Assembly (NCBI RefSeq): GCF_017068395.1
Contig: NZ_CP070619.1
Span: 6,510,001 to 6,574,000 of the forward strand
DNA from: Rhodococcus pseudokoreensis
GTDB lineage: Bacteria > Actinomycetota > Actinomycetes > Mycobacteriales > Mycobacteriaceae
DNA: 64,000 nt
Direction: 5' to 3'
This document shows, in pieces, positions 25,931-63,887 of this stretch (position 1 is the stretch's first letter; every line of letters begins with the position of its first letter). A program made the position numbers and the translations under genes. Below the pieces are notes generated by a model. It was not told where the DNA came from. It was given only the letters and a program-made list of their open reading frames with translations, and did not search any database.

Positions 25931-25961
25931 TTGCGTCGTTCGCCTATGGCTGTTAGGTTTA
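25931..25961 (+). promoter_or_regulatory. promoter with 23-bp regulon operator, ligase-Mo operon
   Basis: TTGCGT at 25931 and TAGGTT at 25954 are 17 bases apart. The dyad TTCGCCTA-N7-TAGGTTTA (25939-25961) overlaps the -10. It lies 53 bp before the acyl-CoA ligase start and probably drives the whole block to 37153. Confidence 0.7.
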
Positions 25962-26014
25962 CGGCACACGAAGTGAGGGTGGTCACACCCGGCTGACGAG
26001 CACGAGGAGCACAG

Positions 26015-27556
26015 ATGAATCTCGCGGACCTGACCCGGTTCTGGGGTAAAACGCGTTCGCAACAGCAGGCCATCGTGTTCGGGGACACGTCGCAGACCTG
26101 GGCCGAGGTCGACGCGATCACCGACGCACTCGCCCGCGGCCTCGCGGCCCGGGGCGTCCGCAAGGGGGACCGGGTGGCGGTGATGATGCTCAATCGCCCC
26201 GAACTCGCCCACATCATCCTTGCGACCCTCAAGCTCGGCGCGATCAGCGTGCCGCTGAACTTCCGGCTCACCGCCAAGGAACTGGCGCCGATGGTGCTCG
26301 ACTCGGCGCCGCGCGTGGTGATCGTCGAGGACGGTTTCGCGTCGCTGCTCGAGGTCGCCGCCGAGCAGGCGGAGTTCGAGACCTACGCGATCGGGGGCAG
26401 TGACCATCCGCCGTACGAGCGGCTGATCGACCCCGGAACCGCGCCCGTCGTCGCCATCGACGCCGACGACCCCGGCTTCATCTGCTACACCTCGGGCACC
26501 ACCGGCGTGCAGAAGGGCGCCCTGATCACCCATCGCAACGCAATGACCCCCGGCATTTCGCAGTCGATCACGTTCGGCTTCTCGTCCCGCGACCGGGTTC
26601 TGTGCTCCGCCCCGCTGGTGTACACCGGTTCGATCCTGTCGATCTTCATGCAACTCGTCGTCGTGCCTGGCGCGACCATGGTCCTGCTGCGCGAATACGA
26701 CCCGGAGATCGCCCTCGACACGTTCGAGCGTGAGCAGATCACGGCCACCACGACCGTCCCCGTGATCTGGGAACGGATGACGATGCTGCCCGACTTCGGC
26801 ACCCGCACGCTCGCGAAGTTCACGTTCGCCGGCACCGGTGGCGCCCCCGTCAGCCTGGACCTGCTCGACTTCTACCGCTCGCACGGCATCCCGCTCACCC
26901 AGTGCTACGGCCTCACCGAGGCGTCCGGCATGGTCTCGACGCTCGCCTACGAGGACGCCCTGTCCCGTCCCGGCTTCGCCGGGCTGCCGCTGGTCGGCAC
27001 CCACATCCGGATCGGGGATCCGGGAATCGACACCCCTGCCGGGGAGGTCGGCGAGATCCTGGTCCGCGGCGAGCACGTGCTGCGGGAGTACTGGAACAAG
27101 CCCGAGGCCACCGCGGCGACCCTCGGCGACGGGTGGCTGCGCACCGGCGACCTCGGCATGCAGGACGAGGGCGGATTCCTGAAGATCGTCGACCGCAGCA
27201 AGGACATGCTGATCTCCGGGGGCCTCAACGTCTACCCCGCCGAGATCGAGAAGGCGCTGCACGGCATCGAGGGCCTGGTCGACCTCGCGGTCATCGGAGT
27301 CAAGGACGACCGCTGGGGCGAGGTGCCGATGGTGGTGTTCCACAGCGAGCGCCCCGCCGCCGAGATCGTCGCCGACATCGCCGAGGTCGCCGGCGAGAAC
27401 CTGGCGAAGTTCAAGCGTCCCAAGCATGCCGTCGCGCTGGGCGAGCCCCTGCCGCGCACGTTCTCCGGCAAGCTCGCGAAACCGTCCCTGCGCCAGCGCT
27501 TCCCCGAGGTGCCCGCCGACGCACTCGCAGTCGACGGCACCGTCACCCCCGTCTAG
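26015..27556 (+). CDS. acyl-CoA/carboxylate-CoA ligase (AMP-forming)
   Basis: This 513-residue ANL-superfamily ligase has the P-loop YTSGTTGVQKGA (residues 158-169), the YGLTEASG adenine-binding motif, TGDLG hinge region and a C-terminal Lys in FSGKLAK. It activates a carboxylic acid to its CoA thioester via the acyl-adenylate. It is first in a long operon with a transporter and three molybdoenzymes, so it probably activates the imported acid before redox steps. Related ligases lie at 37320 and at the right edge of the window. Chain or ring specificity cannot be read here. Confidence 0.93.
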   Translation: MNLADLTRFWGKTRSQQQAIVFGDTSQTWAEVDAITDALARGLAARGVRKGDRVAVMMLNRPELAHIILATLKLGAISVPLNFRLTAKELAPMVLDSAPRVVIVEDGFASLLEVAAEQAEFETYAIGGSDHPPYERLIDPGTAPVVAIDADDPGFICYTSGTTGVQKGALITHRNAMTPGISQSITFGFSSRDRVLCSAPLVYTGSILSIFMQLVVVPGATMVLLREYDPEIALDTFEREQITATTTVPVIWERMTMLPDFGTRTLAKFTFAGTGGAPVSLDLLDFYRSHGIPLTQCYGLTEASGMVSTLAYEDALSRPGFAGLPLVGTHIRIGDPGIDTPAGEVGEILVRGEHVLREYWNKPEATAATLGDGWLRTGDLGMQDEGGFLKIVDRSKDMLISGGLNVYPAEIEKALHGIEGLVDLAVIGVKDDRWGEVPMVVFHSERPAAEIVADIAEVAGENLAKFKRPKHAVALGEPLPRTFSGKLAKPSLRQRFPEVPADALAVDGTVTPV

Positions 27557-27607
27557 CAATATCTCCAATTCGAGGCTTCATCCCCGCGGTTCCCCCTTTC
27601 GAGAGGA

Positions 27608-29023
27608 ATGCACGTCGTGGCCCCAACTCGTGAAGTCGACATCTCCCAACTCATCGACGCCGCACCGGTGTCGGCCCTCCAGAAGCGTGCCATCGCGTTG
27701 TGCCTGGCGCTCGCAATCCTCGACGGCATGGACGCCCAGCTGATCGGATTCGCGATTCCCGCGCTGTCCGAGGACTGGGGGCTGTCCAAGGCCTCGTTCG
27801 GGCTGCTGCTCGCGCTCAGCAGCGGCGCGATGGTCGTCGGCAGCCTGCTGTTCGGTCCCGTGGCCGACCGCTGGGGCCGGCGACGGGTGATCCTGCTGTG
27901 CACCGTGCTGTTCGCGGTGTTCACCCTCGCGTCCGCGTTCGCGCCGTCGATGGGAGTGCTGATCGTGCTGCGCATCCTCGCCGGGATCGGGCTCGGCGGC
28001 GTCACCCCGAACCTGATCGCGCTGACCAGTGAGTACAGCCCCGCGCGCAGCCGCTCCACCTTCGTCACCATCGTCGTCGCGGGAATGTCGCTGGGCGGCT
28101 TCCTCGGCGGACTCGCTGCTGCCCAGCTGATTCCGGCGTACGGCTGGCAGTCGATCTTCGTGGCCGGTGGCGTCCTCCCGCTGATCGTGGCCGCGTTCGC
28201 GTGGGCGGGGCTACCGGAATCGGGCAAGTTCCTCGCGGCCCGGGGCGATCACGCCGGCGCCGCGAAGATCCTCTCGGCGATCGCCCCGCAGGCGGGCATC
28301 ACCGGATCGGTGACGTTCACCGTGGACGCAACCGTGGCCACCAAATCGCCCATCCGGGAACTCTTCGCCGGTGGCCGGGCGCTGGACACGGTCCTGCTGT
28401 GGGTCGTGTTCGTCATCAACTTCCTGGTCATCTACTTCCTGTTCGGGTGGATGCCGTCGCTGTTCAGCCAGGCCGGGCAGAGTCCGTCCAACGCGATCCT
28501 TGCCGCAGCGCTGTTCAACCTCGGCGGCATGGCGGGCGCGCTGTCCATCGGGTGGATCACCGACCGCGTCGGCACCGCGTGGCGCCGGTCCCGGGGTTCG
28601 GACGCCGCGTACGCGGTGGTGATGGCGGGCTACACACTCGGCGCCCTGTTCATCGGCGTCGTCGCGATGTTCCTGGCGAACTCCACCCTGCTGCTGATCA
28701 CGATCTGCATCGTCGGATTCGGGATGTCCGGCAGTTCGGCGGGCATCATCGCGATCGCGGCGTCGATCTACCCGGTGGCGGCACGCTCGACCGGCATCGG
28801 ATGGGCCATGGGAATCGGACGGGTCGGGTCCATCGCCGGGCCCACCCTCGGCGCCGCCCTGATCGCGGCCGGGATGGATGCCCGCACGATCTTCCTGCTG
28901 ATGATCGTGCCGACCGCCGTCGCCGTCCTCACGCTCGGTGCGCTGTTCGTGCGGGAACGGCTGCGCGGGCGCACCGTCGTCGGGGCCGCGGAGTCGGCCG
29001 CCGTCGCTGCCGAGGCGCACTGA
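27608..29023 (+). CDS. MFS transporter, aromatic acid:H+ symporter (AAHS) type
   Basis: A 471-residue, 12-helix major facilitator protein. Helix 1 holds LDGMDAQLIGFAIPAL, the Asp motif of PcaK/BenK-type aromatic-acid symporters, and loop 2-3 holds GPVADRWGRRR. It follows the acyl-CoA ligase by 51 bp and precedes the first molybdoenzyme by 3 bp, so it probably imports the acid that the ligase activates. This points to an aromatic or cyclic carboxylate as pathway substrate. A GTG nine bases downstream is an alternative start. Confidence 0.9.
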   Translation: MHVVAPTREVDISQLIDAAPVSALQKRAIALCLALAILDGMDAQLIGFAIPALSEDWGLSKASFGLLLALSSGAMVVGSLLFGPVADRWGRRRVILLCTVLFAVFTLASAFAPSMGVLIVLRILAGIGLGGVTPNLIALTSEYSPARSRSTFVTIVVAGMSLGGFLGGLAAAQLIPAYGWQSIFVAGGVLPLIVAAFAWAGLPESGKFLAARGDHAGAAKILSAIAPQAGITGSVTFTVDATVATKSPIRELFAGGRALDTVLLWVVFVINFLVIYFLFGWMPSLFSQAGQSPSNAILAAALFNLGGMAGALSIGWITDRVGTAWRRSRGSDAAYAVVMAGYTLGALFIGVVAMFLANSTLLLITICIVGFGMSGSSAGIIAIAASIYPVAARSTGIGWAMGIGRVGSIAGPTLGAALIAAGMDARTIFLLMIVPTAVAVLTLGALFVRERLRGRTVVGAAESAAVAAEAH

Positions 29024-29026
29024 GCC

Positions 29027-31156
29027 ATGCGATCCGTCACGTCGAGGGCCACGTCGTATTGCAGGCTGTGTGCCTCCTCGTGCGGGGTCCTGCTCGACAT
29101 CGAGGACGGGCGGATCGCACGGGTGCTCGGCGACGCCCACCATCCGATCTCCGGCGGGTACACCTGCCCGAAGGGGCGCCGCGGCGGCGACCTCGTCCAC
29201 GGACCGGACCGGCTCACCACGTCGATGCGGCGAACCGCCGCAGGCACCCACGAGCCGGTGCCGGTGGCGCGGGCGGTCACCGACATCGCGGACCGGCTGC
29301 GCGCCATCGTGGACCGGCACGGACCGGACGCGGTCGCGCTGTTCATGGGGACGCAGCAGAACTTCGCTGCACTCACCCCGCCGATGGCCCGGGCCTGGTT
29401 TCGGGGCACCGGCTCGCACAAGTTGTTCTCCACGATGACCATCGACCAGTCCGCGAAATGGGTTGTCGCCGAAAGGATGGGAACGTACCTCGGCGGTCGG
29501 CAGCGATTCGAGGACGCCGACGTGTGGTTGCTCGCGGGAACCAACCCCGTCGTCTCCGGCAACGGCGGCGACGGGGACGGCGCGGTGGTGCAGAACCCGT
29601 CCGTCACGCTGAGGGCGGCGCGGGAGCGGGGCCTGCGGCTCATCGTCGTCGACCCGCGACGCACCGAGACCGCGGCTCTCGCCGACATCCATCTGGCGCC
29701 CCGGCCGGGGACCGACGCGGTGCTGTTCGCCGGTCTCCTGCACGTCGTCCTCACCGAGCGCCTCCACGACGCCGGCTTCTGCCACCGGTACACGGCCGAC
29801 CTGGCCGTGCTCGCCGACGCCGTCGCCGGCGTGACCCCCGACGTCGTGCAGCGGATCTGCGGTGTTCCGGCAGAGCGGATCCGCGACGCGGCACGAGTGT
29901 TCGCAGGCGCGGCGCGGGGCATGGCGACCAGCGGCACCGGGTTGTGCATGGGCCCGCACTCGAACCTCGCGGAACACCTCGTCGCGGCCCTGAACGTGGT
30001 GTGCGGCCGGTACCTGCGCGAGGGGGAGCGGGCCGACGATCGCGCCGTCCTGACCCGGCACCAACCGGCTCGCGCGGAGGTCGCGCCGGCCACCCGGGCA
30101 TTCGAGCGCGGATTCCGCAGCCGGATCGGTGCGGTCCGCGCGATCCGTGGTGAACTGCCGTCCGGCATCCTCGCCGACGAGATCCTCGAACCGGGCCCCG
30201 ACCGGGTGCGGGCACTGATCGTCTCCGGCGGCAACCCGGCGGCGGCGCTGCCCGATCGCGGGAAGGCGTTGCGCGCGATGCGATCACTCGACCTGCTGGT
30301 GTGCGTCGACCCGCGCATGTCGGACACCGCGCGGCTCGCCGACTACGTGATCGCGCCGACCACGATGTACGAGCGCGCCGATCACACCGCGATCATGGAG
30401 CCGTTCTTTCCGCAGCCGTTCGCGCAGTACACCCCCGCAGTCGTGACCGCGCCGCCCGGCGTCGTCGACGACTGGCAATTCTTTCTCGACCTCGCCGCCG
30501 CCTCCGGGCAGCCCGTCAAGTTCGCCGGTCGCATCCTCGACTCTGCCGCGCCACCGACGTCCGAACAGTTGCTGGCGATGACGGCCGAACGGGGACGCGT
30601 CCCGTTCGCCGACCTGGTCGCCGCCCCGCACGGACACCTCGCCGGACGCAGCGGCGCCGTCGTGGGTCCGGCGGCCGAGGAGAGCGCCGGGCACCGCCTG
30701 ACGCTGATGCCCGACGACGTGCGCGCCGAGCTGCGCGCAGCGCTGACGGACAGGACTGTCGCAGCACAGTTCCCGCTCCTGCTGACGGTGCGGCGGATCC
30801 GCGAGGCCGTCAACTCCACCGGCACCCGCGTGCCGGGACTTGTTCCGGGTGGCGCCAACCCCGCGAGCCTGCACCCGGACGACCTCGCCGCCGTGGGCAT
30901 CGCCGATGGGCAGGCGGTGACCGTGCGCTCGGCGTCCGGGCACTTGCGTGCGACCGCGCGGGCGGACGCCACCCTGGCCCGCGGCACCGTGTCGATGACG
31001 CACTGCTTCGGCAGCGTCGACCCGCGCGACGACGTCGGAGTGAACGTGAACGCGCTGACCGGAACCGGCGACGGCGTCCAGTCGATCAACGCGATGCCCA
31101 CCATGACTGCGGTTCCCGTCGCGGTCGAGCCCACCACCATCGAACAGGACATGTGA
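29027..31156 (+). CDS. molybdopterin oxidoreductase 1 (DMSO reductase family)
   Basis: The 709-residue protein has an N-terminal 4Fe-4S motif (YCRLCASSCGVLL, fourth Cys in TCPKG), the molybdopterin domain with LLAGTNPVVSGNG and IVVDPRRTETA, and a C-terminal molydop-binding domain (GGANPASLHPDDLAAVGI; GTVSMTHCFG). No twin-arginine signal is present, so it is cytoplasmic. Where formate dehydrogenases have VDCCARVU, it reads IDQSAKWV, with no Cys or Sec. It is followed by two more members and a ferredoxin reductase, so electrons probably pass via ferredoxin. The reaction is unknown. Confidence 0.92.
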   Translation: MRSVTSRATSYCRLCASSCGVLLDIEDGRIARVLGDAHHPISGGYTCPKGRRGGDLVHGPDRLTTSMRRTAAGTHEPVPVARAVTDIADRLRAIVDRHGPDAVALFMGTQQNFAALTPPMARAWFRGTGSHKLFSTMTIDQSAKWVVAERMGTYLGGRQRFEDADVWLLAGTNPVVSGNGGDGDGAVVQNPSVTLRAARERGLRLIVVDPRRTETAALADIHLAPRPGTDAVLFAGLLHVVLTERLHDAGFCHRYTADLAVLADAVAGVTPDVVQRICGVPAERIRDAARVFAGAARGMATSGTGLCMGPHSNLAEHLVAALNVVCGRYLREGERADDRAVLTRHQPARAEVAPATRAFERGFRSRIGAVRAIRGELPSGILADEILEPGPDRVRALIVSGGNPAAALPDRGKALRAMRSLDLLVCVDPRMSDTARLADYVIAPTTMYERADHTAIMEPFFPQPFAQYTPAVVTAPPGVVDDWQFFLDLAAASGQPVKFAGRILDSAAPPTSEQLLAMTAERGRVPFADLVAAPHGHLAGRSGAVVGPAAEESAGHRLTLMPDDVRAELRAALTDRTVAAQFPLLLTVRRIREAVNSTGTRVPGLVPGGANPASLHPDDLAAVGIADGQAVTVRSASGHLRATARADATLARGTVSMTHCFGSVDPRDDVGVNVNALTGTGDGVQSINAMPTMTAVPVAVEPTTIEQDM

Positions 31157-33393
31157 TGACGACGGCAGAACCGATTGCCGGGCACCGGATCTGCCCGCTG
31201 TGCGAATCGACGTGCGGGCTGCTGGTCGAACTCGACGGTCGCGCCATCACGCGGGTCGCGCCGAACCCCGACGACGTGATGAGCGCCGGGCACAGTTGCG
31301 CGAAGGGGCTCGGTCTCGGCCGCATCGAGGGCGACCCGGACCGGATCCGGACCCCGCTCCTGCGCACCGCGGACGGTGGGTTCCGCGAGGCCGGCTGGGA
31401 CGAGGCGTTCGCCGAGATCGAGCGCCGGCTACCGGAGTTCGTCACCGGCGACCCGGGCAGCTGCGCCGTCTACCACGGGAATCCGGCCGCCCACCACCTG
31501 GATTCCACGTTCTACCTGGGTGAACTGATCGGTGCGGTCGGCACCCGGAACATCTACTCGCCGGCCAGCGTCGACACCTGGCCGAAGAACCTCGCGCACA
31601 TGCTGCTGTACGGCACCGGGCTCGGGATGAGCCTGCCGGACCTCGACCGCACCGACTACCTGCTGATCCTCGGCTCGAACCCGATGGTCTCCAACGGCAG
31701 CACCGTCACCGCGCCCGGCATGCACCACCGCCTGCAGGCGTTGCGCGAGCGGGGCGGCACCCTCGTCGTGGTGGATCCGGTGCGCACCCGAACCGCCGAG
31801 GTCGCGGATCTGCACGTGCCGATCCGGCCCGGGACCGACGCCCTGTTCCTGCTCGGCGTGCTGTCCGTCATCGCGTCCGAGGGACTGTCCCGGCCCGACC
31901 GGGTGCCTGCGGTGGTGGACGGCCTGGGCGCCGCTCTCGCGATTGCGGCGGACTTCGACCCCGACGCCGTCGCCGCCGCGTGCGGAATCGACGCCGACCT
32001 GATCCGCGCGGTGGCCCGGGGGTTCGCGGGCGCGTCTGCAGCGGTGGCGCATTCACGGATCGGGACGTGCATGCAGGAGTTCGGCACCCTCGCGAACTGG
32101 CTCGTCGAGGTGCTCACCATCGTCACCGGCAACCTGGACCGGCCCGGAGGGGCGATGTTCGCGCTGCCGCCGGCCGGCGGGCAGAACACCTGGCCGGTGA
32201 CGAGACCGCCGAAGCTGATGTTCGACCGGTGGCGTTCGCGAGTGCGGGGGCTGCCGGAGGCGATGGGGGAGTTGCCCGCGGTGTGCTTCGCCGAGGAGAT
32301 CCTCACGCCCGGACCGGGCCGTACCCGGGCGCTGATCACCTTCGCCGGGAACCCGGCCCGCTCCCTGCCCAACAGCGGGGCGATCGAGCAGGCCCTCGGC
32401 GCTCTCGACTTCATGGTGTCGGTGGACTGCTACCTCAACGAGACCACCCGCCATGCCGACGTGATCCTGCCGCCGCCACCGCTGGCGACCCGCGGCCACC
32501 ACGACGTGACACTGGCGCACTTCCAGATCCGGAACGTCGCGCGGTACACCCCACCCCTGCTCGACCTCGCCGACAATGAGCTGGCGGAATGGCAGATCCT
32601 GCTGCGGATCGCCGCGATCGCCAAGGGAACCCCGCAGCGTCCGGTCGAGGAGATGGACGACGAGGTGGCCGCCGTCGCAGCGCGGCGCGCCGCGAAACTC
32701 GCCGGCCGCGAGGTGGAACAGGTTCTGCACGCCGTCACCGACCGGCGCGGCCCTCAGCGATTGCTGGACCTGCGTCTGCGCAGCGGACCCTACGGAGACC
32801 GTTTCGGGCTCGACCCGGACGGGCTGACTCTCGCACTGCTGGAGGCCAACCCGGACGGCATCGACTACGGGTCGCTGACACCGCGCGTCCCGGAGGTGCT
32901 GCGCACCCCGGACGGGCGGATCGACCTGATGCCGGAGATGATCGTCGCGGATCTGCCACGGGTGCGGGCGAGCATGACCCGGTCCGCCCCGGATCTGCTG
33001 CTGATCAACCGGCGTCAGCGGCGCGGCATGAATTCGTGGCTGCACAATGCCCTGCCCCAACCGGACGGCGGCCAGTGCGCCCTGCTGATCAGCCCGCGCG
33101 ATGCGGCCGAGCGCGGCCTGGTCGGCGGCGACCGGGTGGCGGTGACGTCCAAGGTCACCACCGTGACGGCCGAACTGCGGATCGACGACGCATTGCGTCC
33201 CGGTGTGGTGAGCATGCCGCACGGGTGGGGCCACCACGGGCCGGGCCTGCGGACGTCCCGGTCGGCGTCGGTGCCCGGCAGCAACTACAACGCGCTGGTG
33301 GACGACACCACCGACCTCGAGGCGCTGACGGCGTCCCCGATCTTCAACGGCGTCCCGGTCACCGTGACGCGCATGAGCGAGGAGCTTCCCTGA
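31156..33393 (+). CDS. molybdopterin oxidoreductase 2 (DMSO reductase family)
   Basis: A 745-residue paralogue starts at an ATG sharing one base with the previous stop (TGATG). It has the 4Fe-4S motif ICPLCESTCGLL with the fourth Cys in SCAKG, the LILGSNPMVSNGS and VVVDPVRTRTAEVADLHV motifs, and the C-terminal NSWLHN and VSMPHGWGHHG motifs. At the metal-ligand position the sequence is VDTWPKNL, again without Cys or Sec. It is cytoplasmic, with no Tat signal. It differs clearly from the other two copies, so the three are not a recent triplication. Confidence 0.92.
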   Translation: MTTAEPIAGHRICPLCESTCGLLVELDGRAITRVAPNPDDVMSAGHSCAKGLGLGRIEGDPDRIRTPLLRTADGGFREAGWDEAFAEIERRLPEFVTGDPGSCAVYHGNPAAHHLDSTFYLGELIGAVGTRNIYSPASVDTWPKNLAHMLLYGTGLGMSLPDLDRTDYLLILGSNPMVSNGSTVTAPGMHHRLQALRERGGTLVVVDPVRTRTAEVADLHVPIRPGTDALFLLGVLSVIASEGLSRPDRVPAVVDGLGAALAIAADFDPDAVAAACGIDADLIRAVARGFAGASAAVAHSRIGTCMQEFGTLANWLVEVLTIVTGNLDRPGGAMFALPPAGGQNTWPVTRPPKLMFDRWRSRVRGLPEAMGELPAVCFAEEILTPGPGRTRALITFAGNPARSLPNSGAIEQALGALDFMVSVDCYLNETTRHADVILPPPPLATRGHHDVTLAHFQIRNVARYTPPLLDLADNELAEWQILLRIAAIAKGTPQRPVEEMDDEVAAVAARRAAKLAGREVEQVLHAVTDRRGPQRLLDLRLRSGPYGDRFGLDPDGLTLALLEANPDGIDYGSLTPRVPEVLRTPDGRIDLMPEMIVADLPRVRASMTRSAPDLLLINRRQRRGMNSWLHNALPQPDGGQCALLISPRDAAERGLVGGDRVAVTSKVTTVTAELRIDDALRPGVVSMPHGWGHHGPGLRTSRSASVPGSNYNALVDDTTDLEALTASPIFNGVPVTVTRMSEELP

Positions 33394-35015
33394 TGGCGTA
33401 CGTGGTCACCCAGAACTGCTGCAACGATGCGACGTGTGTCGCGGTCTGCCCCGTCGACTGCATCCACCCGACTCCCGCCGAGCGGGAGTACACGCGCACC
33501 GAGATGCTGTACATCGACCCGGGCACCTGCATCGACTGCGGCGCCTGCGCCGACGTGTGCCCGGTGGACGCGATCGTCCCCGGCGACGCCCCCGCACCCG
33601 ACATCGACCGGTACCGGGAGATCAACGCCGAGTACTTCCAGCGGAATCCACGCAGCGCCCCGCCGGGTGCGCACGTGCAGCCGCTCCCGCTCGCCCTCGC
33701 GACCACCGGCGTTACCGATCCGCCTGCGCTGCGGGTGGCGATTGTCGGATCCGGACCGTCCGCGTTCTACGCCGCCGAGGAACTGCTGGCCCGCCGCGAC
33801 ATCGCCGCCGAGGTCACCATGTTCGAACGGCTGCCCGTCGCGGGCGGACTCGTGCGGTTCGGCGTCGCGCCGGACCACTGGCACACGAAGACGGTGGACC
33901 GGGTGTTCGACCGCACCGCGCGACGTGACGGCTTCACCTTCCACCTCGGCGTCGAGGTGGGGCGGGACGTGACGCTCGACGAGGTGCTGGCCCACCATCA
34001 CGCGGTGATCCACGCGTCCGGGGCGTCGGGGGACCGGCGCCTCGGCATCCCCGGCGAGGACCTGCCGGGCAGCTACGCCGCCCGGGAGTTCGTCGCCTGG
34101 TACAACGGTCACCCCGATCACGCCGAGCGCACGTTCGACCTGTCCGCGCGCCGCGCCGTCGTGGTCGGCAACGGCAACGTCGCCCTGGACGTCGCCCGCA
34201 TCCTCGTCTCCGATGTGGACACCCTGCGCCGCACCGACATCGCCGACCACGCCCTCGCCGCGCTGGCCGGCAGCCGGATCGAGGAGGTGGTGGTGCTCGG
34301 CAGGCGGGGACCCGAGCACGCGGCCTGCACCACGCCGGAACTGCTCGCGCTCGGCTCGCTGCCGGGCATCGACGTCCTCGTCGACGGTCCGGTCACGGCG
34401 GGTCCGGACGCACCGGCCAAGCTGCGGATCCTCGCCGACTACTCCCGGCGGAAGGCAACTCCGGGGAACAAACGCATCGTGCTGCGCTTCGGCACCTCCC
34501 CACGAGAGGTTCTCGGTGCGGGCCGTGCCGAGTCGCTCCTGGTTGCTCACGGCGACACAGCAGACCGGATCGAATGCGGTCTGATCCTCCGGGCGGTCGG
34601 GTACCGCGGACTGCCGATCGCCGGTCTTCCGTTCGACGACGCCACCGGAACCGTCGCCAATGCCGCGGGCCGCGTTGCGTTGCAGGGCACCGGGGAGACC
34701 GTCCGCGGCCACTACGTGGCGGGCTGGATCAAACGCGGTGCCACCGGTGTGATCGGTACGAATCGCTACTGCGCGGCGGAGACCGTCGAGGCACTTCTCG
34801 CCGACCATCGCGCAGGGCTGCTCGCCGCCCCCACCGCGGCCGCCGCCGACCTGGCGGCGCTGGTGCGCGAACGCAGGCCCGACGCGCTCGGCGGTGCGGA
34901 CTGGCGCGCGATCGACCGCTTCGAGCGCGAGCGCGGCCGCGAGGAGGGCAGGCCCCGCATCAAGATCGTCGACGCCCGGGAGGCGGCCGTCGTCGCGGGT
35001 GCGGCCGCCCGGTGA
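33393..35015 (+). CDS. ferredoxin-NADP reductase with fused ferredoxin domain (FprB-like), Mo operon
   Basis: The product has 540 residues from the ATG overlapping the stop of molybdoenzyme 2 (TGATG). Residues 1-75 are a 7Fe ferredoxin (CCNDATCVAVCPVDC; CIDCGACADVCPVD); from about residue 112 it is an FAD/NADP reductase (VAIVGSGPSAFYAAEELL; GNGNVALDVARIL; GWIKRGATGVIGTN). It is a close paralogue of the protein at 6144. Embedded between two molybdoenzyme genes with overlapping ends, it should link NADP(H) to the molybdoenzymes through its ferredoxin domain. Confidence 0.93.
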   Translation: MAYVVTQNCCNDATCVAVCPVDCIHPTPAEREYTRTEMLYIDPGTCIDCGACADVCPVDAIVPGDAPAPDIDRYREINAEYFQRNPRSAPPGAHVQPLPLALATTGVTDPPALRVAIVGSGPSAFYAAEELLARRDIAAEVTMFERLPVAGGLVRFGVAPDHWHTKTVDRVFDRTARRDGFTFHLGVEVGRDVTLDEVLAHHHAVIHASGASGDRRLGIPGEDLPGSYAAREFVAWYNGHPDHAERTFDLSARRAVVVGNGNVALDVARILVSDVDTLRRTDIADHALAALAGSRIEEVVVLGRRGPEHAACTTPELLALGSLPGIDVLVDGPVTAGPDAPAKLRILADYSRRKATPGNKRIVLRFGTSPREVLGAGRAESLLVAHGDTADRIECGLILRAVGYRGLPIAGLPFDDATGTVANAAGRVALQGTGETVRGHYVAGWIKRGATGVIGTNRYCAAETVEALLADHRAGLLAAPTAAAADLAALVRERRPDALGGADWRAIDRFERERGREEGRPRIKIVDAREAAVVAGAAAR

Positions 35016-37207: not shown

Positions 37208-37238
37208 TTGCCGGATTTAACAACAACCTTTAGATTTA
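37208..37238 (+). promoter_or_regulatory. promoter with degenerate 23-bp site, ligase-SDR operon
   Basis: TTGCCG at 37208 and TAGATT at 37231 are 17 bases apart. TTTAACAA-N7-TAGATTTA (37216-37238) has a perfect right arm and a weak left arm. It is 81 bp before the ligase start. Confidence 0.5.
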
Positions 37239-40508: not shown

Positions 40509-40531
40509 CCTACCTAAAGGCTTGAGGTTTT
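40509..40531. promoter_or_regulatory. 23-bp regulon site, divergent promoter (copy 1)
   Basis: CCTACCTA-N7-GAGGTTTT lies 25 bp before the minus-strand SDR start codon. It abuts the second copy with a two-base overlap. Confidence 0.55.
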
Positions 40532-40552
40532 AATCTAAAAGCATTAGTCTGC
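40530..40552. promoter_or_regulatory. 23-bp regulon site, divergent promoter (copy 2)
   Basis: TTAATCTA-N7-TAGTCTGC has a good left arm and a weak right arm. It lies 108 bp before the enoyl-CoA hydratase start on the plus strand. Confidence 0.5.
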
Positions 40553-44082: not shown

Positions 44083-44111
44083 CTCCGGTTTACCTAACGG
44101 CATAAGGTATA
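44079..44111 (+). promoter_or_regulatory. promoter with 23-bp regulon operator, SnoaL-DUF35 operon
   Basis: TTGACT at 44079 and TAAGGT at 44103 are 18 bases apart. The dyad TTTACCTA-N7-AAGGTATA (44089-44111) covers the -10. The first gene starts 57 bp downstream. Confidence 0.7.
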
Positions 44112-44168: not shown

Positions 44169-44486
44169 ATGTCTGTCGAAGACTTCCGCGAACTGTACGA
44201 GCGGCACGTCGGATACGTGGTGTCCGGAGACATGAAGTCCGCACTCGCCGACATGGTTCAGGCGAACCTGCCCGCCGTGTTCGACGGTGTCACCGTTCCC
44301 CGCGGCGACGTCGACGGGTTCGAGATCAAGGACGTCCGGGCCGTCGGCGACCGCCGAATCGGCGAGACGGTGTACACCACCCCGGGCGGCACGATCGGCC
44401 TGCGATCGATCTGGGAGCGTCACGACGGCCGCTGGCAGGCCGCGGCGCTCGAGAACTTCCCCGCCGAAGGAGGGCGTCCGGCATGA
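44169..44486 (+). CDS. SnoaL/NTF2-like small protein
   Basis: A 105-residue protein starts at an ATG behind AAAAGGAG. Helix-strand pattern and length fit the NTF2/SnoaL fold (FRELYERHVGYVVSGDMKSALADMV; IGLRSIWERHDGRWQAAAL). It is the first gene of a five-gene operon; its stop overlaps the DUF35 gene start. Members can be cyclases, isomerases or dehydratases, or binding partners. Its pairing with DUF35 and a thiolase-like gene is reminiscent of steroid side-chain aldolase/hydratase clusters. Confidence 0.8.
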   Translation: MSVEDFRELYERHVGYVVSGDMKSALADMVQANLPAVFDGVTVPRGDVDGFEIKDVRAVGDRRIGETVYTTPGGTIGLRSIWERHDGRWQAAALENFPAEGGRPA

Positions 44487-46095: not shown

Positions 46096-46122
46096 CACCC
46101 CGACTCTGTGAGAAGGATCGAC

Positions 46123-47574: not shown

Positions 47575-47623
47575 TTCGACACGCTTTTCATTCACCATCA
47601 GATCTGATCGAACGGAGCAGGCG

Positions 47624-50102: not shown

Positions 50103-50159
50103 GCGTCCATGTCAAGGGTGTTCCGGCGAGGTCGGAAGACCCGAAGGTAAAGCGTGGAC

Positions 50160-50182
50160 AAAACTAATGGCTGTTGGTTAAC
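50160..50182 (+). promoter_or_regulatory. 23-bp regulon site before MFS gene
   Basis: AAAAACTA-N7-TTGGTTAA matches the common site at the central CTA and GGTT positions. The spacer ATGGCTG resembles TGGCTGT of the site at 25939. It lies 53 bp before the start codon. Confidence 0.5.
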
Positions 50183-52576: not shown

Positions 52577-52599
52577 TTTACCTAAATAGTGTAGTTTCT
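52577..52599. promoter_or_regulatory. 23-bp regulon site before lipase
   Basis: On the plus strand, TTTACCTA-N7-TAGTTTCT; the left arm is identical to that at 44089. It lies 30 bp upstream of the minus-strand lipase ATG. Confidence 0.6.
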
Positions 52600-53883: not shown

Positions 53884-55053
53884 TCAGTTCGTTGCCAGTA
53901 GTTTCTGCGTCTCACGCCGGAACACCTGGTTGGCGACCTCGTTCTGGCCCAATACCATCCGGCCGGCGTTGGCGCTGGTCATGCCGTGCTGCGAGTCCCG
54001 CAGGAGGGGGAAGTCCTCCGCGTGGAGAACGGCGAGGAGGATCTCCCAGTTCTTGGTCCACAGGCGGTTCCACCGCTCCTCGGTCATCTCGGTCTCCGCG
54101 ACCGGCGGCACGATCAGGCGCATCTCCATGCGGCAGCGCTGCGGATCTGTGGGGTGCGGCCGGAAGGTGAGGAGCTGGAAGTGATCCGGCTGCCGCAGCA
54201 GGGTGCTGTTGGGGAGCAGGAAATGGGTTTCCGTGATGTCCTTGGCCAGGCTCCGGTCGCCGGGATCCTCTTCGATCCACCGGTCGATCGACTTGCGCGG
54301 CGCGATGAATCGGCAGTGCCTGCCGAAGTCCTCGAACGCCATCACGTTGGTGTGGATGTGCTTGGCCGCGGTGTTCGGGTGGGCGTACTGGATGTGGTAT
54401 CCGTCGAGGAAGGCGTCCTGCATGATCTTCCAGTTCACCGGCTCGTCGAATCCCTCGGACTGGAAGGCGATCTTGGAACCGAGGTCGTAGCCGGCGACGA
54501 TCGTATCCATCTCTTCGCCGAGCCAGCCCGCCACGTCGATCTCGGCGTTCGCGTCGTCGACGACCCAGATGAAACCGTGACGTTCCTCGGTCGGCAATTC
54601 CACGAGCCCCATGTTCGTGGTGTCGGTCTCGCCGAACGTGTTGTCGCGGGTAATCGTCCGGAGGCTGCCGTCCGTGTCGTACGACCACCGGTGGTACGGG
54701 CAGGAGAAGAGCCGGCACCGGCCCTTCTCCTCCTTTTCGAGGAGGGCGCCGCGGTGCCGGCAGAGGTTGACGAACGTCTTGACGCCGCCGTCGCGCTGAC
54801 GGACCACGATGATGTTGTTCCGCGGCATCTGAAGGGTGAAGAAGTCGCCGGCGCGGGGGATCTCGGAGCCGTGCGCGACGATGGAGGGGACACGTCCGAA
54901 GATGAGGTCCCGTTCCCGCTTGGCCACGGCCGGATCGGTGAACTCCTCCGGCTGGAACCAGGTGATGTGCTCGAATTCGTCCGTCGTGTCGTTGCGCAGG
55001 TGATCCAGGGCGCGGCGAATGCGTTCCTCGCGGGGGGCTCCGACCTCGGTCAT
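53884..55053 (-). CDS. Rieske non-haem iron oxygenase, alpha subunit
   Basis: The product has 389 residues from the ATG at 55053, which has GGAGGAA upstream; the longer frame would run over the operator. The Rieske motif is C98-R-H100 ... C118-PY-H121, and mononuclear-iron His220 and His225 lie in DGYHIQYAH. No beta-subunit gene is present. It resembles the Rieske protein at 21969 in layout but belongs to another operon, with an acyl-CoA dehydrogenase. The PDR-type reductase at 61431 carries the same operator and is the probable electron donor. Confidence 0.93.
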   Translation of the reverse strand: MTEVGAPREERIRRALDHLRNDTTDEFEHITWFQPEEFTDPAVAKRERDLIFGRVPSIVAHGSEIPRAGDFFTLQMPRNNIIVVRQRDGGVKTFVNLCRHRGALLEKEEKGRCRLFSCPYHRWSYDTDGSLRTITRDNTFGETDTTNMGLVELPTEERHGFIWVVDDANAEIDVAGWLGEEMDTIVAGYDLGSKIAFQSEGFDEPVNWKIMQDAFLDGYHIQYAHPNTAAKHIHTNVMAFEDFGRHCRFIAPRKSIDRWIEEDPGDRSLAKDITETHFLLPNSTLLRQPDHFQLLTFRPHPTDPQRCRMEMRLIVPPVAETEMTEERWNRLWTKNWEILLAVLHAEDFPLLRDSQHGMTSANAGRMVLGQNEVANQVFRRETQKLLATN

Positions 55054-55143: not shown

Positions 55144-55166
55144 TAAATCTAACTCACATAGATTTA
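55144..55166. promoter_or_regulatory. perfect 23-bp regulon operator, Rieske promoter
   Basis: TAAATCTA-N7-TAGATTTA is the only copy with fully complementary arms and serves as the reference for the motif. It lies 90 bp before the minus-strand Rieske ATG. Confidence 0.8.
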
Positions 55167-55192: not shown

Positions 55193-55223
55193 TTGCGGGT
55201 GTTATCAATGAGCATTAGGTTTA
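55193..55223 (+). promoter_or_regulatory. promoter with 23-bp site, acetyltransferase gene
   Basis: TTGCGG at 55193 and TAGGTT at 55216 are 17 bases apart. GTTATCAA-N7-TAGGTTTA (55201-55223) has a perfect right arm. It is 30 bp before the start codon. Confidence 0.6.
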
Positions 55224-58880: not shown

Positions 58881-59537
58881 TCAGGCGGAGCGTTCCTCCG
58901 CTGCGTTCCCGGCGGCCGCGTCGTTTCGCATCACCCCGTACAGGAAGCTGCGGATCATTTCCTCGAACAACCGCTTCGACGAGAGTTCATTGGCGGCAAG
59001 TGCTTCGGCGAGGAGCGGCTGAGACTCCGGATCGACGTTCGGGAAGATCGTGGCGCGGGTGCTCGGCTTGCGCATCGCCTCCGTCAGGACGGCGCCGATG
59101 GACAACGTCTCCATCCCGTCCAGGATCTGGACGTGGAGATGCGTCGGCACACCGGAGTCCAGCAGGAACCGGGCCGTGTCCTCGTACGTGCCGATCAGGA
59201 GGTCCCGCGGCAGATACTGCAGGAGGATCGGCGCCGCGTTCCGGTGCCGCAGGATGGCCTGGCGGAAATTCATGCTCAACGCCACGAAGAACTCGGGCCA
59301 GTCGGGACCGGGCTTGCGGCGGGGACGGACGACGGACGCGCCGGCGATGTGCCGTGCCACCGCGGACAGGATCTCGCTCTTGTCCGCGAAGTGGTGGTAC
59401 AGCGACGGCGCCTGCACTCCGAGGTGCTTGGCCAGTCGCGGCAGACTGAAAGCCTCGAGTCCTTGGGAATCGATGATCTCGATGGACGCCTGCACCGCAG
59501 CCGCGCGGCTGATCAGGGGCTTCGATGGTCGGGGCAT
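58881..59537 (-). CDS. TetR-family regulator, candidate regulator of the 23-bp site regulon
   Basis: This 218-residue TetR protein has its helix-turn-helix near residues 32-54 (FSLPRLAKHLGVQAPSLYHHF), with a TetR_C-like helical domain after it. It is the third gene of a minus-strand operon (SDR, hydrolase, TetR; gaps of 22 and 38 bp) headed by a copy of the 23-bp operator at 61300. A regulator inside an operon it controls fits negative autoregulation. It is the only regulator gene within the stretch where the site is dense. The effector may be an acyl-CoA, but that is inference. Confidence 0.88.
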   Translation of the reverse strand: MPRPSKPLISRAAAVQASIEIIDSQGLEAFSLPRLAKHLGVQAPSLYHHFADKSEILSAVARHIAGASVVRPRRKPGPDWPEFFVALSMNFRQAILRHRNAAPILLQYLPRDLLIGTYEDTARFLLDSGVPTHLHVQILDGMETLSIGAVLTEAMRKPSTRATIFPNVDPESQPLLAEALAANELSSKRLFEEMIRSFLYGVMRNDAAAGNAAEERSA

Positions 59538-59575: not shown

Positions 59576-60478
59576 TCAGTCATGGTGAGGTGAATCGTAG
59601 TCGGTCGTGGTCACCTCATGGGTGTAGGCGACGTCGCTGTCGAGGAAGTCGAGCAGGCCGCCGCTGAGCAGGTCGTTGTCGTCGCCGCTGACCATGTGGC
59701 CGGCACCTCCGACATCGATGTGACGGGCCGACGGGATCAGTTCCAGCAGGTCACGGGCACCGTCCGCGCTGACGACGTCGGACTGGGCGCCCCGGATGAG
59801 GAGGGTCGGGACGCGCACCGCCCGTGCCGCGGCGCGGGCCCGCGCTTCCCGGACCTCGGCGTGGTCGTCGGTGTTCTCCCGATACGTGATCATCCGCGGA
59901 TCCCAGTGCCAGTACCAGCGCCCGTCGCGGAGGCGGAGGTTCTTGCGGAGTCCCTCGACGCGCGGTGGACGACGGCGGTGCGGGTTGTAGGCGACGACGG
60001 CGTCGAGCGCGTCCTCGAGGGTGTCGAAACCGGCGAGGCCGCTCTCCATGAACGACGTGATCTTGGCGAGGCCGCCGGGTTCGGCGCGGGGTGTGATGTC
60101 CACCAGGACCAGCGCGCGGCCGATGCCGTGGTCGCCCTGCGCGAGCAACGACGCCATCCCACCCATGGACGCGCCGACCAGCACCGGTGGCTCGTCGAGT
60201 CCGGCGGCGACGGCCGCGAGGTCGCGTGCGTGGGCATTGCTGCCGTAGTCGCCGTCCTCGGCCCACTCGCTGTCGCCGTGACCGCGGGCATCGATGGCCA
60301 GGGCGCACCAGCCGTTGTCGGCGAGTCGAATTCCGGTGCGCTGCCACGAATGGCGGGTCTGCCCACCGCCGTGCAACAGCAGGACGATTCCCTTCCGCGC
60401 GGACGCCGGCTCCCACCGGTCCGCGACGAGTGTGACTCCGTCGCCTCGCAGTTCGGTGCGAATCGTGGTGATCGGCAT
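59576..60478 (-). CDS. alpha/beta hydrolase
   Basis: A 300-residue soluble hydrolase with HGGGQTRHSW (oxyanion hole), AIDARGHGDS, nucleophile elbow GASMGG, acid in IRGAQSDVV and His in VGGAGHMVSG. There is no signal peptide. It lies between an SDR and a TetR gene in one operon. It may open a lactone or cleave an ester or C-C bond; meta-cleavage-type hydrolases have the same fold. The last 25 residues are a polar tail. Confidence 0.88.
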   Translation of the reverse strand: MPITTIRTELRGDGVTLVADRWEPASARKGIVLLLHGGGQTRHSWQRTGIRLADNGWCALAIDARGHGDSEWAEDGDYGSNAHARDLAAVAAGLDEPPVLVGASMGGMASLLAQGDHGIGRALVLVDITPRAEPGGLAKITSFMESGLAGFDTLEDALDAVVAYNPHRRRPPRVEGLRKNLRLRDGRWYWHWDPRMITYRENTDDHAEVREARARAAARAVRVPTLLIRGAQSDVVSADGARDLLELIPSARHIDVGGAGHMVSGDDNDLLSGGLLDFLDSDVAYTHEVTTTDYDSPHHD

Positions 60479-60500: not shown

Positions 60501-61280
60501 TCAGTGACCGGAGGTTCCGCCGTCGACGGCGAGCGTCGAACCGGTGATGTAGCCCGAGGCCCGGCTGGCGAGGAAGACCACCGCCGCGTCGAGTTCGCGC
60601 TGGGTGGCGGTCCGTCCGAGTGAGCAGTCGTGGAGGAAGGCCGCGAGTGTCTCCGCCGACATCTCGCCGATCATGTCGGTGTCGACGAATCCCGGTGCGA
60701 TCGCATTGACCCGGATGCCCTTGCGCCCCGACCACTGGTTCGACAGATCCCTGGTCAAGCCGATGAGTCCGGCCTTGCTCGACGAGTACGCGGCCTGCGG
60801 GAGCACGGACTTCACCAGGCCGAGCATGCTGGTGATGTTGACGATGCTGGAACCGGGGCCCATCACACGGGCGCAGGCCTGCGCGGCCCAGTAGGCGCCG
60901 AAGAGGTTCACGTCGAGCACCGCCCGATAGTCCTCGGGCCGCTCGCGGGTGGCGGGTGCGGCGTGGGTGACCCCGGCATTGTTCACCAGGATGTCGAGTC
61001 TGCCGAACCGGTCGATCGCCGCCTGTGCGAGCGCGTCGCACTGCTCTGGATCGGTCACGTCGGTGGGGACCACCAGGCAGTTGCGCCCGCGTTCGGTCAC
61101 CGATCGGGCGACCGCGTCGAGTCGGTCGCGCCGTCGTGCGGCGATCACGACATCCGCGCCTGCCTCGGCGAGCGCGCACGCGAAACCGGCGCCGAGGCCG
61201 CTGCCCGCGCCGGTGACGACGGCCACGGAGTCGGTCAGGCGGAACAGGTCGAGCACCGATTCGGTTGCCTGCGGGTTCAT
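60501..61280 (-). CDS. SDR-family oxidoreductase
   Basis: A 259-residue SDR with VVTGAGSGLGAGFACAL, Arg residues after strand 2 (AARRRDR, favouring NADP), NNAG, Ser in NITSMLG and YSSSKAG. It is the first gene of the minus-strand SDR-hydrolase-TetR operon; the operator ends 19 bp before its start codon. The role is probably a ketone/alcohol interconversion in the pathway. Confidence 0.9.
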   Translation of the reverse strand: MNPQATESVLDLFRLTDSVAVVTGAGSGLGAGFACALAEAGADVVIAARRRDRLDAVARSVTERGRNCLVVPTDVTDPEQCDALAQAAIDRFGRLDILVNNAGVTHAAPATRERPEDYRAVLDVNLFGAYWAAQACARVMGPGSSIVNITSMLGLVKSVLPQAAYSSSKAGLIGLTRDLSNQWSGRKGIRVNAIAPGFVDTDMIGEMSAETLAAFLHDCSLGRTATQRELDAAVVFLASRASGYITGSTLAVDGGTSGH

Positions 61281-61299: not shown

Positions 61300-61322
61300 A
61301 AATTCTAATGCACATAGGTTTA
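61300..61322. promoter_or_regulatory. 23-bp regulon operator, SDR-hydrolase-TetR operon
   Basis: On the plus strand AAATTCTA-N7-TAGGTTTA, with the spacer ATGCACA close to that of the other good sites. It lies 20 bp upstream of the minus-strand SDR ATG, so it probably overlaps or follows the transcription start. Confidence 0.7.
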
Positions 61323-61362: not shown

Positions 61363-61395
61363 TTGCGTGACATTAACCTAATGACATAAGATTTA
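61363..61395 (+). promoter_or_regulatory. promoter with 23-bp regulon operator, reductase-MFS operon
   Basis: TTGCGT at 61363 and TAAGAT at 61387 are 18 bases apart. The dyad TTAACCTA-N7-AAGATTTA (61373-61395) covers the -10. Confidence 0.7.
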
Positions 61396-61430
61396 CGAGC
61401 AAGTGGAGTCGAGTGGAACGAGACGGGTAC

Positions 61431-62390: not shown

Positions 62391-62393
62391 CGG

Positions 62394-63875
62394 ATGGTGA
62401 CGACGGGCGCCGGGTCGGTCACGGTCACGGTCCCGGCCCGGCGGTCCGGAACGCGCGATCGGCTGCTGGTCCCGGCGCTGTGCTTCGTCGTCATGACCAC
62501 GGCCGTCATACAGACGGCGGTCGTGCCGCTGCTCCCCGCGATGGCGTCGCAACTCGGGGTCGATTCGGCCGCCGTGGGCTGGGTGGTCACCGCGAACCTG
62601 CTCGCCGCGGCAGTGTGCACTCCGGTTCTCGGCAGACTGGCCGATCGGCGTGGTCCGCGCCCGGTGCTGCTGGGGACGCTCGTCCTGGTGCTCCTCGGTT
62701 CGGTGCTGTGCACCGTCACCGAGTACCTCCCGTTCCTCGTGCTCGGCCGAATTCTTCAGGGGGTGTCGTTCGCGCTGTTCCCGATCGGCGTCGCCGTGTT
62801 GAGAGGACGCCTCGAACCGCGCCGGCTACTGGGCGCCATCGGGCTGATGTCGGGGATCCTGGCCGTGGGCGGGGGACTCGGCATGGTCGCCGCCGGCGTC
62901 CTGCACACCGAGGGTGCGGACTTCCGGCGAGTGTTCGCCCTGCTCGCCGGGCTGAATCTCGCCGCGCTCGTCGTCGCCTGGGTGACCGTTCCTCGCGGCG
63001 GCGCGGCGCGGACCCGCGACGGCATGGACCCGGTCGGCGTCGGTCTCATGGCCGTGGGCCTGTCCGCGATCCTGATCGCCCTCGCCGAAGGCGGCCGGTG
63101 GGGCTGGGCCTCACCGCCGACGATCGGCGTGGCGGCACTGGGGATCGCCGTCACCGCGGGGTGGTACCTGCACGAGCGGCGGACCCGGGCGCCCCTCGTC
63201 CCGCCGATGCTGCTGTCCGGGCGGCGGGTTGCGGGCACGCACCTCGCGGCGTTTCTCGTCGGGATGGCCATGTACATCCAGTTTCTCGGTTCGGCGCAGT
63301 TCGTGCAGGCCTCGCGCGCCGCCGTCGGATACGGCTTCGACGCCTCGGTGCTGCGCACCAGCCTCCTCGTGCTGCTTCCCGGTTCGGTCGCGGGGGTGGT
63401 GGCGGCGTCGGCGAGCGGCCGATTCGTTCACCGCTTCCGCGCCGACCGCGTGCTCGTCGCGGCCTGCGGGATCGGGGTGGCCGGATTCGCGATGCTGGCG
63501 CTGGCCCACTCCCGGTTGTGGCAGGTGGTCGTGGCACTCGTCGTGATCAACGTTTTCGTGAGCGGGTCGTACGCGGTGCTGCCCGCGTTGCTCGTCGACG
63601 CCGTGCCTGCCGAATTCACCGGGGTCACCAACGGCATCAACGCGATTGCGCGGACCTTCGGTAGTTCGCTCGCCAGCGCGCTGGTCGCGACACTGCTCGC
63701 GTCCGTGACGGTCGCCGGCACTGATCTGGCGTCCGAGCGGGCGTTCGTGATCGCGTTCTGGGTGGGCAGCGCGGCGGCGGGAGGGGCCGGGCTGGCAATC
63801 GCTCGAGCGGAACACGTTTCGAGAAAACGTGCCGATCGGGGTGTCCGATTCGGTGCAACATCAGTTAATCTATAG
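62394..63875 (+). CDS. MFS transporter, DHA2-like
   Basis: A 493-residue transporter, probably with 14 helices, with LGRLADRRGPRPVLLG in loop 2-3. It begins 4 bp after the reductase stop and is co-transcribed with it. DHA2-type proteins are mostly drug or metabolite exporters, so it may export a toxic intermediate or substrate rather than import one. The final 25 residues are basic and polar. A GTG three bases downstream is an alternative start. Confidence 0.87.
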   Translation: MVTTGAGSVTVTVPARRSGTRDRLLVPALCFVVMTTAVIQTAVVPLLPAMASQLGVDSAAVGWVVTANLLAAAVCTPVLGRLADRRGPRPVLLGTLVLVLLGSVLCTVTEYLPFLVLGRILQGVSFALFPIGVAVLRGRLEPRRLLGAIGLMSGILAVGGGLGMVAAGVLHTEGADFRRVFALLAGLNLAALVVAWVTVPRGGAARTRDGMDPVGVGLMAVGLSAILIALAEGGRWGWASPPTIGVAALGIAVTAGWYLHERRTRAPLVPPMLLSGRRVAGTHLAAFLVGMAMYIQFLGSAQFVQASRAAVGYGFDASVLRTSLLVLLPGSVAGVVAASASGRFVHRFRADRVLVAACGIGVAGFAMLALAHSRLWQVVVALVVINVFVSGSYAVLPALLVDAVPAEFTGVTNGINAIARTFGSSLASALVATLLASVTVAGTDLASERAFVIAFWVGSAAAGGAGLAIARAEHVSRKRADRGVRFGATSVNL

Positions 63876-63887
63876 ATCGTAGGTTTG
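63865..63887 (+). promoter_or_regulatory. 23-bp regulon site before last gene
   Basis: TTAATCTA-N7-TAGGTTTG, seven of eight right-arm bases as in the best sites. It lies 70 bp before the start of the truncated gene at the window edge. Confidence 0.6.

Follow-up and report, generated by a model that had tools for sequence, protein, structure and literature searches.

A recurrent 23-bp palindrome as the probable operator of a TetR-family regulator in a catabolic gene cluster of Rhodococcus pseudokoreensis

A stretch of 64,000 nucleotides of the Rhodococcus pseudokoreensis genome (assembly GCF_017068395.1, contig NZ_CP070619.1, positions 6,510,001 to 6,574,000), here termed the window, carries a 23-base-pair (bp) palindrome with the consensus TAAAYCTAAnGnCnTTAGRTTTA that recurs before the genes of a large uncharacterised degradation cluster. 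The palindrome is very probably the operator of a TetR_C_1-type regulator encoded in the same cluster (58881-59537, minus strand), as judged from sequence comparisons. Because seven of the sites overlap predicted -10 boxes, the regulator is probably a repressor, and it would govern about 30 genes for coenzyme A (CoA)-dependent degradation of a cyclic or aromatic acid. TetR repressors that act through palindromic operators over catabolic clusters are well known as a kind; what appears to be new is this particular regulator with its operator and regulon. A search of literature titles and abstract beginnings returned nothing on the regulator or the motif, and a description elsewhere is possible because most subscription journals lay outside its reach. 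The assignment gives the cluster a candidate regulator, operator and regulon boundary and provides a handle for finding its substrate.

The original prediction described half-sites TTAAYCTA and TAGRTTTA separated by exactly 7 bp (23 bp overall) at 14 places in the window, and this recurrence is confirmed. At up to three mismatches the pattern yields 13 strand-matches at nine places, compared with a mean of 0.01 in 100 shuffles; the five remaining listed copies are weaker than these nine. Allowing W at the second outer position gives 13 places with up to four mismatches, against a mean of 0.25 and a largest value of 2 in 20 Markov simulations. A symmetric matrix built from the 14 listed places recovers them, and when each is left out in turn, 12 of the 14 score above all non-site positions in the window, with one non-site position beating the copy at 40509 and one beating that at 52577. 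Among all 3-mer dyads with gaps of 0-20 in the intergenic DNA of the window (34 stretches, 4399 bases), CTA-N7-TAG ranks first, with 5 seen and 0.15 expected; the 4-mer dyad scan of this DNA has no motif word in first place. The listed positions are mostly accurate: the copy given as 50160 fits best at 50159, and that at 40509 is weak, with five mismatches. Both arms are perfect at 55144, which had been singled out as a perfect dyad. Measured to our own gene starts, 12 sites lie at the claimed distance of 20-155 bp, and only the copy at 11265, already named as an outlier, lies farther off, at 317 bp; the placement of 63865 before a reading frame, read separately, also agrees. A further matrix match at 6059 overlaps a different repeated element, is doubtful for that reason and was rejected as a member. 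Scans for tRNA genes and Rfam families gave no matches.

The motif is largely confined to the cluster. A scan of the 9.87-Mb genome at up to three mismatches gives 12 sites, 10 of them inside the window. The flanks, 39 kb downstream and 19 kb upstream of the window, contain no site scoring at least 18. A reversed control pattern gives 10 matches genome-wide, so it is the clustering and not the total that counts as evidence. A genome scan had been set as the means of refuting a cluster-specific motif, and it did not do so.

The two arms are both under constraint. The right arm had been proposed to form the -10 box behind a TTG-type -35 hexamer, with a spacer of 17-18 bp, at seven sites, and this is confirmed for 7886, 25939, 37216, 40530, 44089, 55201 and 61373. 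Such an arrangement, with -35-like TTG hexamers 17-18 bp from a downstream arm that is itself the -10 hexamer, would also suit a promoter element, for example an extended or otherwise unusual -10 read by a sigma factor of its own, and the motif would then be no operator. This is very improbable, as the conservation extends beyond the -35 and -10 elements to a left arm that is related to the right one by dyad symmetry. In 64 aligned site copies of 120 possible (15 places in eight genomes, including the doubtful 6059, which supplies two copies), substitutions amount to 43/512 (8.4%) in the left arm, 36/512 (7.0%) in the right arm, 92/448 (20.5%) in the centre and 502/3131 (16%) in the flanks, the eight genomes being related and not independent; columns 6, 16 and 17 are unchanged throughout. 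The left arm is thus conserved in orthologous promoters, where its loss had been named as grounds for refutation. A matrix made from right arms only recognises the reverse-complemented left arms, with a mean of 8.6 compared to -8.7 for flanks (Mann-Whitney 1.6e-10), which agrees with the original view that sigma-factor binding does not explain the left arm. The perfect dyad at 55144, several sites that fit no such promoter, and the tracking of a TetR gene by the motif across genera (below) also speak against a promoter element. The promoter-only reading of the sites was rejected on left-arm conservation and the right-arm matrix result. Among 201 arm-selected sites from the 80 loci introduced below, information ends 11 bases either side of the centre.

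The proposed binder is the TetR-family protein encoded at 58881. Palindromic sites lie near its own operon: the operon (61280-58881) starts 20 bp from the predicted operator at 61300 and 93 bp from that at 61373. The start of the regulator, ATG 59537, is taken from relatives; our gene caller gave GTG 59495. The protein contains a TetR_N helix-turn-helix domain (42.6 bits, cut-off 24) and a TetR_C_1 ligand and dimer domain (25.7 bits, cut-off 21), and it scores 88.6 bits with the NCBIfam TetR equivalog for tetracycline-resistance repressors, below the cut-off of 265. By sequence, tetracycline repressors are its closest solved relatives, the operator complex 1QPI among them. The best of five AlphaFold models has a predicted local distance difference test (pLDDT) score of 86 and a predicted template modelling score of 0.78 (pLDDT 62-85 for the others), and Foldseek with the predicted fold returned TetR(D) as best matches, with 1QPI third.

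Regulator and site occur together in relatives. Within the genus (28 genomes; TetR relative at 1e-20, sites with up to two mismatches), a TetR relative is found in 13 genomes and all 13 have sites, compared with 2 of the 15 TetR-negative genomes (G003 with two matches, G019 with one). The matches number 72 in TetR-positive and 3 in TetR-negative genomes, and the reversed pattern gives 35 in 21 of the 28 genomes, 18 in TetR-positive and 17 in TetR-negative ones. Within the family (251 genomes; TetR at 1e-60, site with up to one mismatch), 31 genomes have the TetR and 26 have the site: 25 have both, 6 the TetR only, 1 (G102) the site only and 219 neither (Fisher 1e-27). The reversed pattern matches 14 genomes, two of them TetR-bearing. 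At least one site is on the TetR contig in 24 of the 25 double-positive genomes; in G215 it is on a different contig. A wider set comprises the best 80 of 179 loci from a genome-contig scan with the TetR alignment, with TetR relatives at 51-99% identity in genera that include Rhodococcus, Nocardia, Gordonia, Williamsia, Mycobacterium, Mycolicibacterium, Aldersonia, Streptomyces, Actinomadura, Nocardioides, Aeromicrobium, Pseudonocardia and Amycolatopsis. These contain 253 matrix matches (score at least 18) in 73 loci, compared with 4 for the reversed matrix and a mean of 5.15 (largest 51) for 20 column-scrambled symmetric matrices. A homologue of a window gene lies within 350 bp of 197 of the 253, and the commonest genes near sites are those for the Rieske oxygenase (33 loci), the reductase (21), the 105-amino-acid (aa) open reading frame (ORF) at 44169 (14) and the TetR itself (11). 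Among 4-mer dyads in the whole 80 loci, TAAA-N15-TTTA is second (43 seen, 0.07 expected) and CTAA-N5-TTAG equal sixth (33, 0.05); among 3-mer dyads there, CTA-N7-TAG is outside the top 12, and CGA/TCG-type codon words dominate. A plasmid collection held no relatives of the TetR (1e-30) or the Rieske protein (1e-60).

Three loci separate the regulator from the gene set. In L068, L070 and L148 the TetR alone closely resembles a window gene (49-56% identity); other matches are CoA ligases, a major facilitator superfamily (MFS) transporter and a few others at 30-33%, and an aldehyde dehydrogenase at 37% and 45%. These loci have no Rieske, acyl-CoA dehydrogenase or thiolase homologue in about 20 kb (tblastn 1e-15, 40% of length). 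The sites persist at one gene's distance from the TetR, in the region from which the ligase and transporter genes diverge, and the motif therefore tracks the regulator and not the gene set. Co-occurrence together with this dissociation argues strongly for the TetR at 58881 as the candidate binder, as originally proposed. A different regulator could bind the sites, namely the TetR at 10622, the TetR at 21283 or an unseen one, with the 58881 protein merely travelling with the cluster. The window does hold these two further TetR genes, and the domain scan covered our gene calls except genes 1-7, 10 and 14-21; a co-conserved regulator is also compatible with the 80-locus set because its loci were picked by TetR. 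This alternative is nonetheless improbable: L068, L070 and L148 keep their sites where no gene but the TetR closely resembles one of the window, each of the TetR genes at 10622 and 21283 has homologues in 23 of the 80 loci (tblastn 1e-20, half length) against sites in 73, and a repeated element, CGTAATTTGTATCAC, at 6068 and 11424 would be a better candidate for the TetR at 10622.

Several observations weigh against the 58881 TetR as regulator of all these sites. Three copies (40509, 52577 and 7886) are weak. Counter to two-arm conservation, 11265 has a changed right arm in G010 and G027, and 40509 is changed in G005. Seven of the 14 sites have no TTG-type promoter; 63865 was outside that scoring, and 55144 has TCGACG or TTTACA. 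Six TetR-positive family genomes have no site at one mismatch, of which G015 and G021 have sites at two, and seven of the 80 loci have no match of at least 18 (L101, L103, L111, L129, L133, L135 and L152; L103 and L111 are short). The p-values are overstated because related genomes are not independent, and some of the 80 loci overlap or share strains with the genus and family genomes. Finally, the TetR frame of G197 (G197:C5:683544-684173) has an in-frame TAA while the genome keeps three sites; gene decay or an error in sequencing may account for this.

The mechanism may be envisaged as follows. A dimer of the 58881 TetR would bind each copy, with one recognition helix on the CTA core and the other on the TAG core 7 bp away, in a mode like that of the tetracycline repressor on tetO plus contacts to the A/T-rich outer arms. 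Residues R3, P4 and P7 are invariant at the N-terminus and may extend into the minor groove at the A/T-rich outer bases. The bound dimer would block RNA polymerase, since at about half of the sites the downstream arm coincides with the -10 or abuts it, and blocking is the simplest reading given the overlap at 7 of 14. A pathway-derived ligand would then release the regulator; the acid or its CoA thioester is the best guess because the regulator's minimal neighbours are CoA-ligase and aromatic-acid-transporter homologues. Release would induce about 30 genes that serve the uptake, CoA activation and degradation of the acid, the regulator's own operon among them.

The same protein could instead activate transcription, alone or in addition to repressing it. 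Some sites are indeed away from the likely -10 (61300 for gene 61431, at 109 bp; 11265, at 317 bp), and pairs of sites 73-75 bp apart are compatible with looping, though they largely represent one ancestral promoter. TetR-type regulators are repressors in most cases, and the -10 overlap at seven sites likewise favours a simple block, so that an activating role is unlikely. KstR offers a precedent for such a block: it represses, and its motif partly overlaps a -10 (PMC1995591). The paired arrangement of 61300 and 61373 recurs as 18 pairs 73-75 bp apart in the 80 loci (score at least 16) and is compatible with looping, cooperative binding or descent from one common promoter. A second register, displaced by 6 bp in the manner of dimer pairs, applies to a minority of sites: 24 of the 201 score at least 10 at offset 6, compared with 18 at offset 1 and 5 at offset 7, and six overlapping match pairs occur.

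Comparison with known systems places the regulator near, yet apart from, the tetracycline repressor. TetR with tetO (1QPI) is its nearest solved relative by sequence and fold, and the CTA-N7-TAG geometry of the core is that of tetO. The operator here differs in its central bases and in arms that extend to 23 bp, and it would serve many target operons instead of one. His100 of TetR is a drug-pocket residue, and because leucine replaces it the 58881 protein would not be a tetracycline sensor. By alignment, Pro39, Tyr42 and His44 of TetR are kept as P44, Y47 and H49, Thr40 corresponds to Ser45, and Arg28, Gln38 and Trp43 are replaced by Pro33, Ala43 and His48. In the operator, position 2 has 0.3 bit and position 3 has 1.0 bit, with the arms mostly at 1.3-2.3 bits, values inflated since the arms were used in selection; the CTA core (positions 4-6) is retained in the arm-selected sites. 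The weak preference at position 2 and moderate one at 3 fit the loss of the Arg28 and Gln38 equivalents: in TetR-tetO these two residues alone contact bases through side-chain hydrogen bonds (guanine +2 and adenine +3), with Pro39, Thr40, Tyr42 and Trp43 in van der Waals contact (PMC7102968).

AmtR of Corynebacterium glutamicum is also an actinobacterial TetR-family regulator of a regulon, and its box, tttCTATN6AtAGat/aA, shares the CTA core and A/T-rich outer arm (PMC2723105). In the AmtR model presented there, the Arg28 equivalent faces G, the Gln38 equivalent A, and Ser55, the Thr40 equivalent, touches C-7; the 58881 protein has equivalents of Ser55, Tyr57 and His59. The systems differ in CTA-to-TAG spacing, 8 bp in AmtR and 7 bp here, so that the CTAT-N6-ATAG form is absent, and AmtR is described as a regulator of nitrogen control that is not autoregulated (PMC2723105). 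The AmtR structure 5e57 matches only residues 9-61 of the 58881 protein. KstR likewise belongs to the TetR family and represses a large catabolic regulon in actinobacteria; its palindrome overlaps the -10, and its sites occur in divergent promoters, sometimes two (PMC1995591). Its motif, TnnAACnnGTTnnA, differs from the present one in letters and length; that the motif was not originally recognised as the operator of KstR agrees with the comparison by eye of TnnAACnnGTTnnA and the 80-locus consensus. KstR sites also occur in many intergenic regions (16 and 31 in two species), whereas the sites here lie in one cluster.

Table 1. Putative operator copies and associated genes in the window.
Feature	Position	Strand	Context
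Putative operator copy	7886..7908	+	Overlaps predicted -10 TAAGGT; -35 TTGACG, spacer 18; before short-chain dehydrogenase/reductase (SDR) gene 8063, 77-aa ORF, P450 gene 9191
Putative operator copy	11265..11287	+	317 bp before ABC-transporter ATPase gene 11604; target uncertain
Putative operator copy	25939..25961	+	Before acyl-CoA ligase / MFS / three molybdenum (Mo) oxidoreductase operon 26015-37153
Putative operator copy	37216..37238	+	Before acyl-CoA ligase 37320, SDR 38844
Weak putative operator copy, 5 mismatches	40509..40531	.	Divergent promoter region 39647(-)/40661(+)
Putative operator copy	40530..40552	.	Divergent region 39647(-)/40661(+), 21 bp from 40509
Putative operator copy	44089..44111	+	Before genes 44169-50050: 105-aa ORF, ChsH2-like OB/zinc-ribbon protein, thiolase-like protein, aldehyde dehydrogenase, fused CoA-transferase
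Putative operator copy	50159..50181	+	Before MFS transporter 50242
Weaker putative operator copy	52577..52599	-	Before gene 52546-51629(-), weakly alpha/beta-hydrolase-like
Perfect-dyad putative operator copy	55144..55166	.	Divergent Rieske oxygenase 53884(-) / acetyltransferase 55254(+) region
Putative operator copy	55201..55223	.	Same Rieske/acetyltransferase divergent region, 57 bp from 55144
Putative operator copy	61300..61322	.	20 bp before SDR gene heading TetR operon (61280 to 58881, -)
Putative operator copy	61373..61395	.	73 bp from 61300; right arm = predicted -10 of reductase gene 61431(+)
Putative operator copy	63865..63887	+	Window edge; 64 bp before 507-aa ORF starting 63952
TetR-family regulator (TetR_N + TetR_C_1), proposed binder	58881..59537	-	Third gene of operon behind 61300/61373
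SDR oxidoreductase, first gene of TetR operon	60501..61280	-	Family match
Alpha/beta hydrolase, second gene of TetR operon	59576..60478	-	Family match
Putative regulated operon	26015..37153	+	Acyl-CoA ligase, aromatic-acid type MFS transporter, three FdhA-like Mo oxidoreductases, ferredoxin-NADPH reductase-like protein
Rieske oxygenase alpha-subunit-like protein	53884..55053	-	Commonest gene behind operator in 80 loci (33 loci)

The size suggested for the regulon, about 35 genes, is roughly right by our gene calls: 29 genes lie at 26015-63875, a further three follow the copy at 7886, and the right edge adds one ORF; the nine behind 11265 are uncertain. The families represented include acyl-CoA ligases, MFS transporters, an enoyl-CoA hydratase, a thiolase, an acyl-CoA dehydrogenase and a fused type III CoA-transferase, together with three formate-dehydrogenase-like Mo oxidoreductases, a ferredoxin/NADPH-reductase-like protein, SDRs, a luciferase-like monooxygenase (LLM)-class F420-dependent oxidoreductase and aldehyde dehydrogenases. 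A ChsH2-like OB/zinc-ribbon protein with an Ltp2-like thiolase, a Rieske oxygenase with its reductase, a mycofactocin-type SDR and a P450 complete the list. Judged by these families, the cluster appears to encode the CoA-dependent breakdown of a cyclic or aromatic acid. The nearest relatives point to no single compound: the P450 is nearest to a CYP125 ancestor and CYP101D1, the thiolase to the lipid-transfer protein 6ok1, and the C-half of the CoA-transferase to one benzylsuccinate CoA-transferase subunit, while its N-half matches the other subunit less well than the human-type succinate-hydroxymethylglutaryl (HMG) CoA-transferase 9br7. This CoA-transferase is a fused double type III enzyme of 808 aa (window 47624-50050), and the neighbouring genes 44483 and 44911 give weak matches to BbsA/BbsB models. 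The three formate-dehydrogenase-like Mo oxidoreductases and the ferredoxin/NADPH-reductase-like protein (window 29123-37153) are found within an otherwise aerobic-looking catabolic operon.

The regulator and operator occur as a pair in many genera, with paralogues side by side, and form a natural data set for co-change of recognition helix and operator; the regulator is also a candidate orthogonal repressor for Rhodococcus. Paralogues with SLYNHF in place of SLYHHF occur in 7 of 301 family genomes (1e-45). Four of these seven loci, two of them near-identical, have a site near the gene, and A stands at base -7 in 7 of their 8 half-sites, compared with C 52%, T 37% and A 11% in the arm-selected set, a contrast inflated by selection with C/T at that base, mismatches allowed. 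The other three loci have no site of at least 15 within 3.6 kb; G017 has matches of 17.9 and 21.4 farther off. The link between SLYNHF and A at -7 is suggestive only. Near TSSLYHH paralogues the sites have TTAA and not TAAA outer arms, with T at -10 in 81% (13 sites, 4 loci) compared with 35% in the main group. A CGGTTAA arm was dropped as a mark of these paralogues, as such arms also occur by ordinary relatives (e.g., L078, L082). The genome that carries the window also has, at G000:C6:5261707-5262297 (loci L155 and L072), a distant TetR paralogue of 37-40% identity that adjoins a variant site, ATAAACTATAGGCGTTAGTAAAT, with Rieske-like and CoA-ligase-like neighbours. One speculative extension, for which we hold limited expectation, is that this TetR branch could be an actinomycete-wide master switch of a still undescribed CoA-dependent catabolic route, repeatedly duplicated and changed in DNA specificity by recognition-helix swaps. 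That route might comprise the P450, the Rieske oxygenase, the ChsH2/Ltp-like pair and the fused CoA-transferase, here also with the three molybdenum oxidoreductases, a composition held just as tentatively.

The second repeated element, CGTAATTTGTATCAC, lies at window 6068-6082 and 11424-11438, with a related copy near 10533-10545. It includes an ATTACGT-GCG-ACGTAAT inverted repeat near 11413 and stands before genes 6255 and 11604 and near the TetR gene at 10622, for which a PADLOC scan gave one weak match. The element is perhaps the operator of another TetR.

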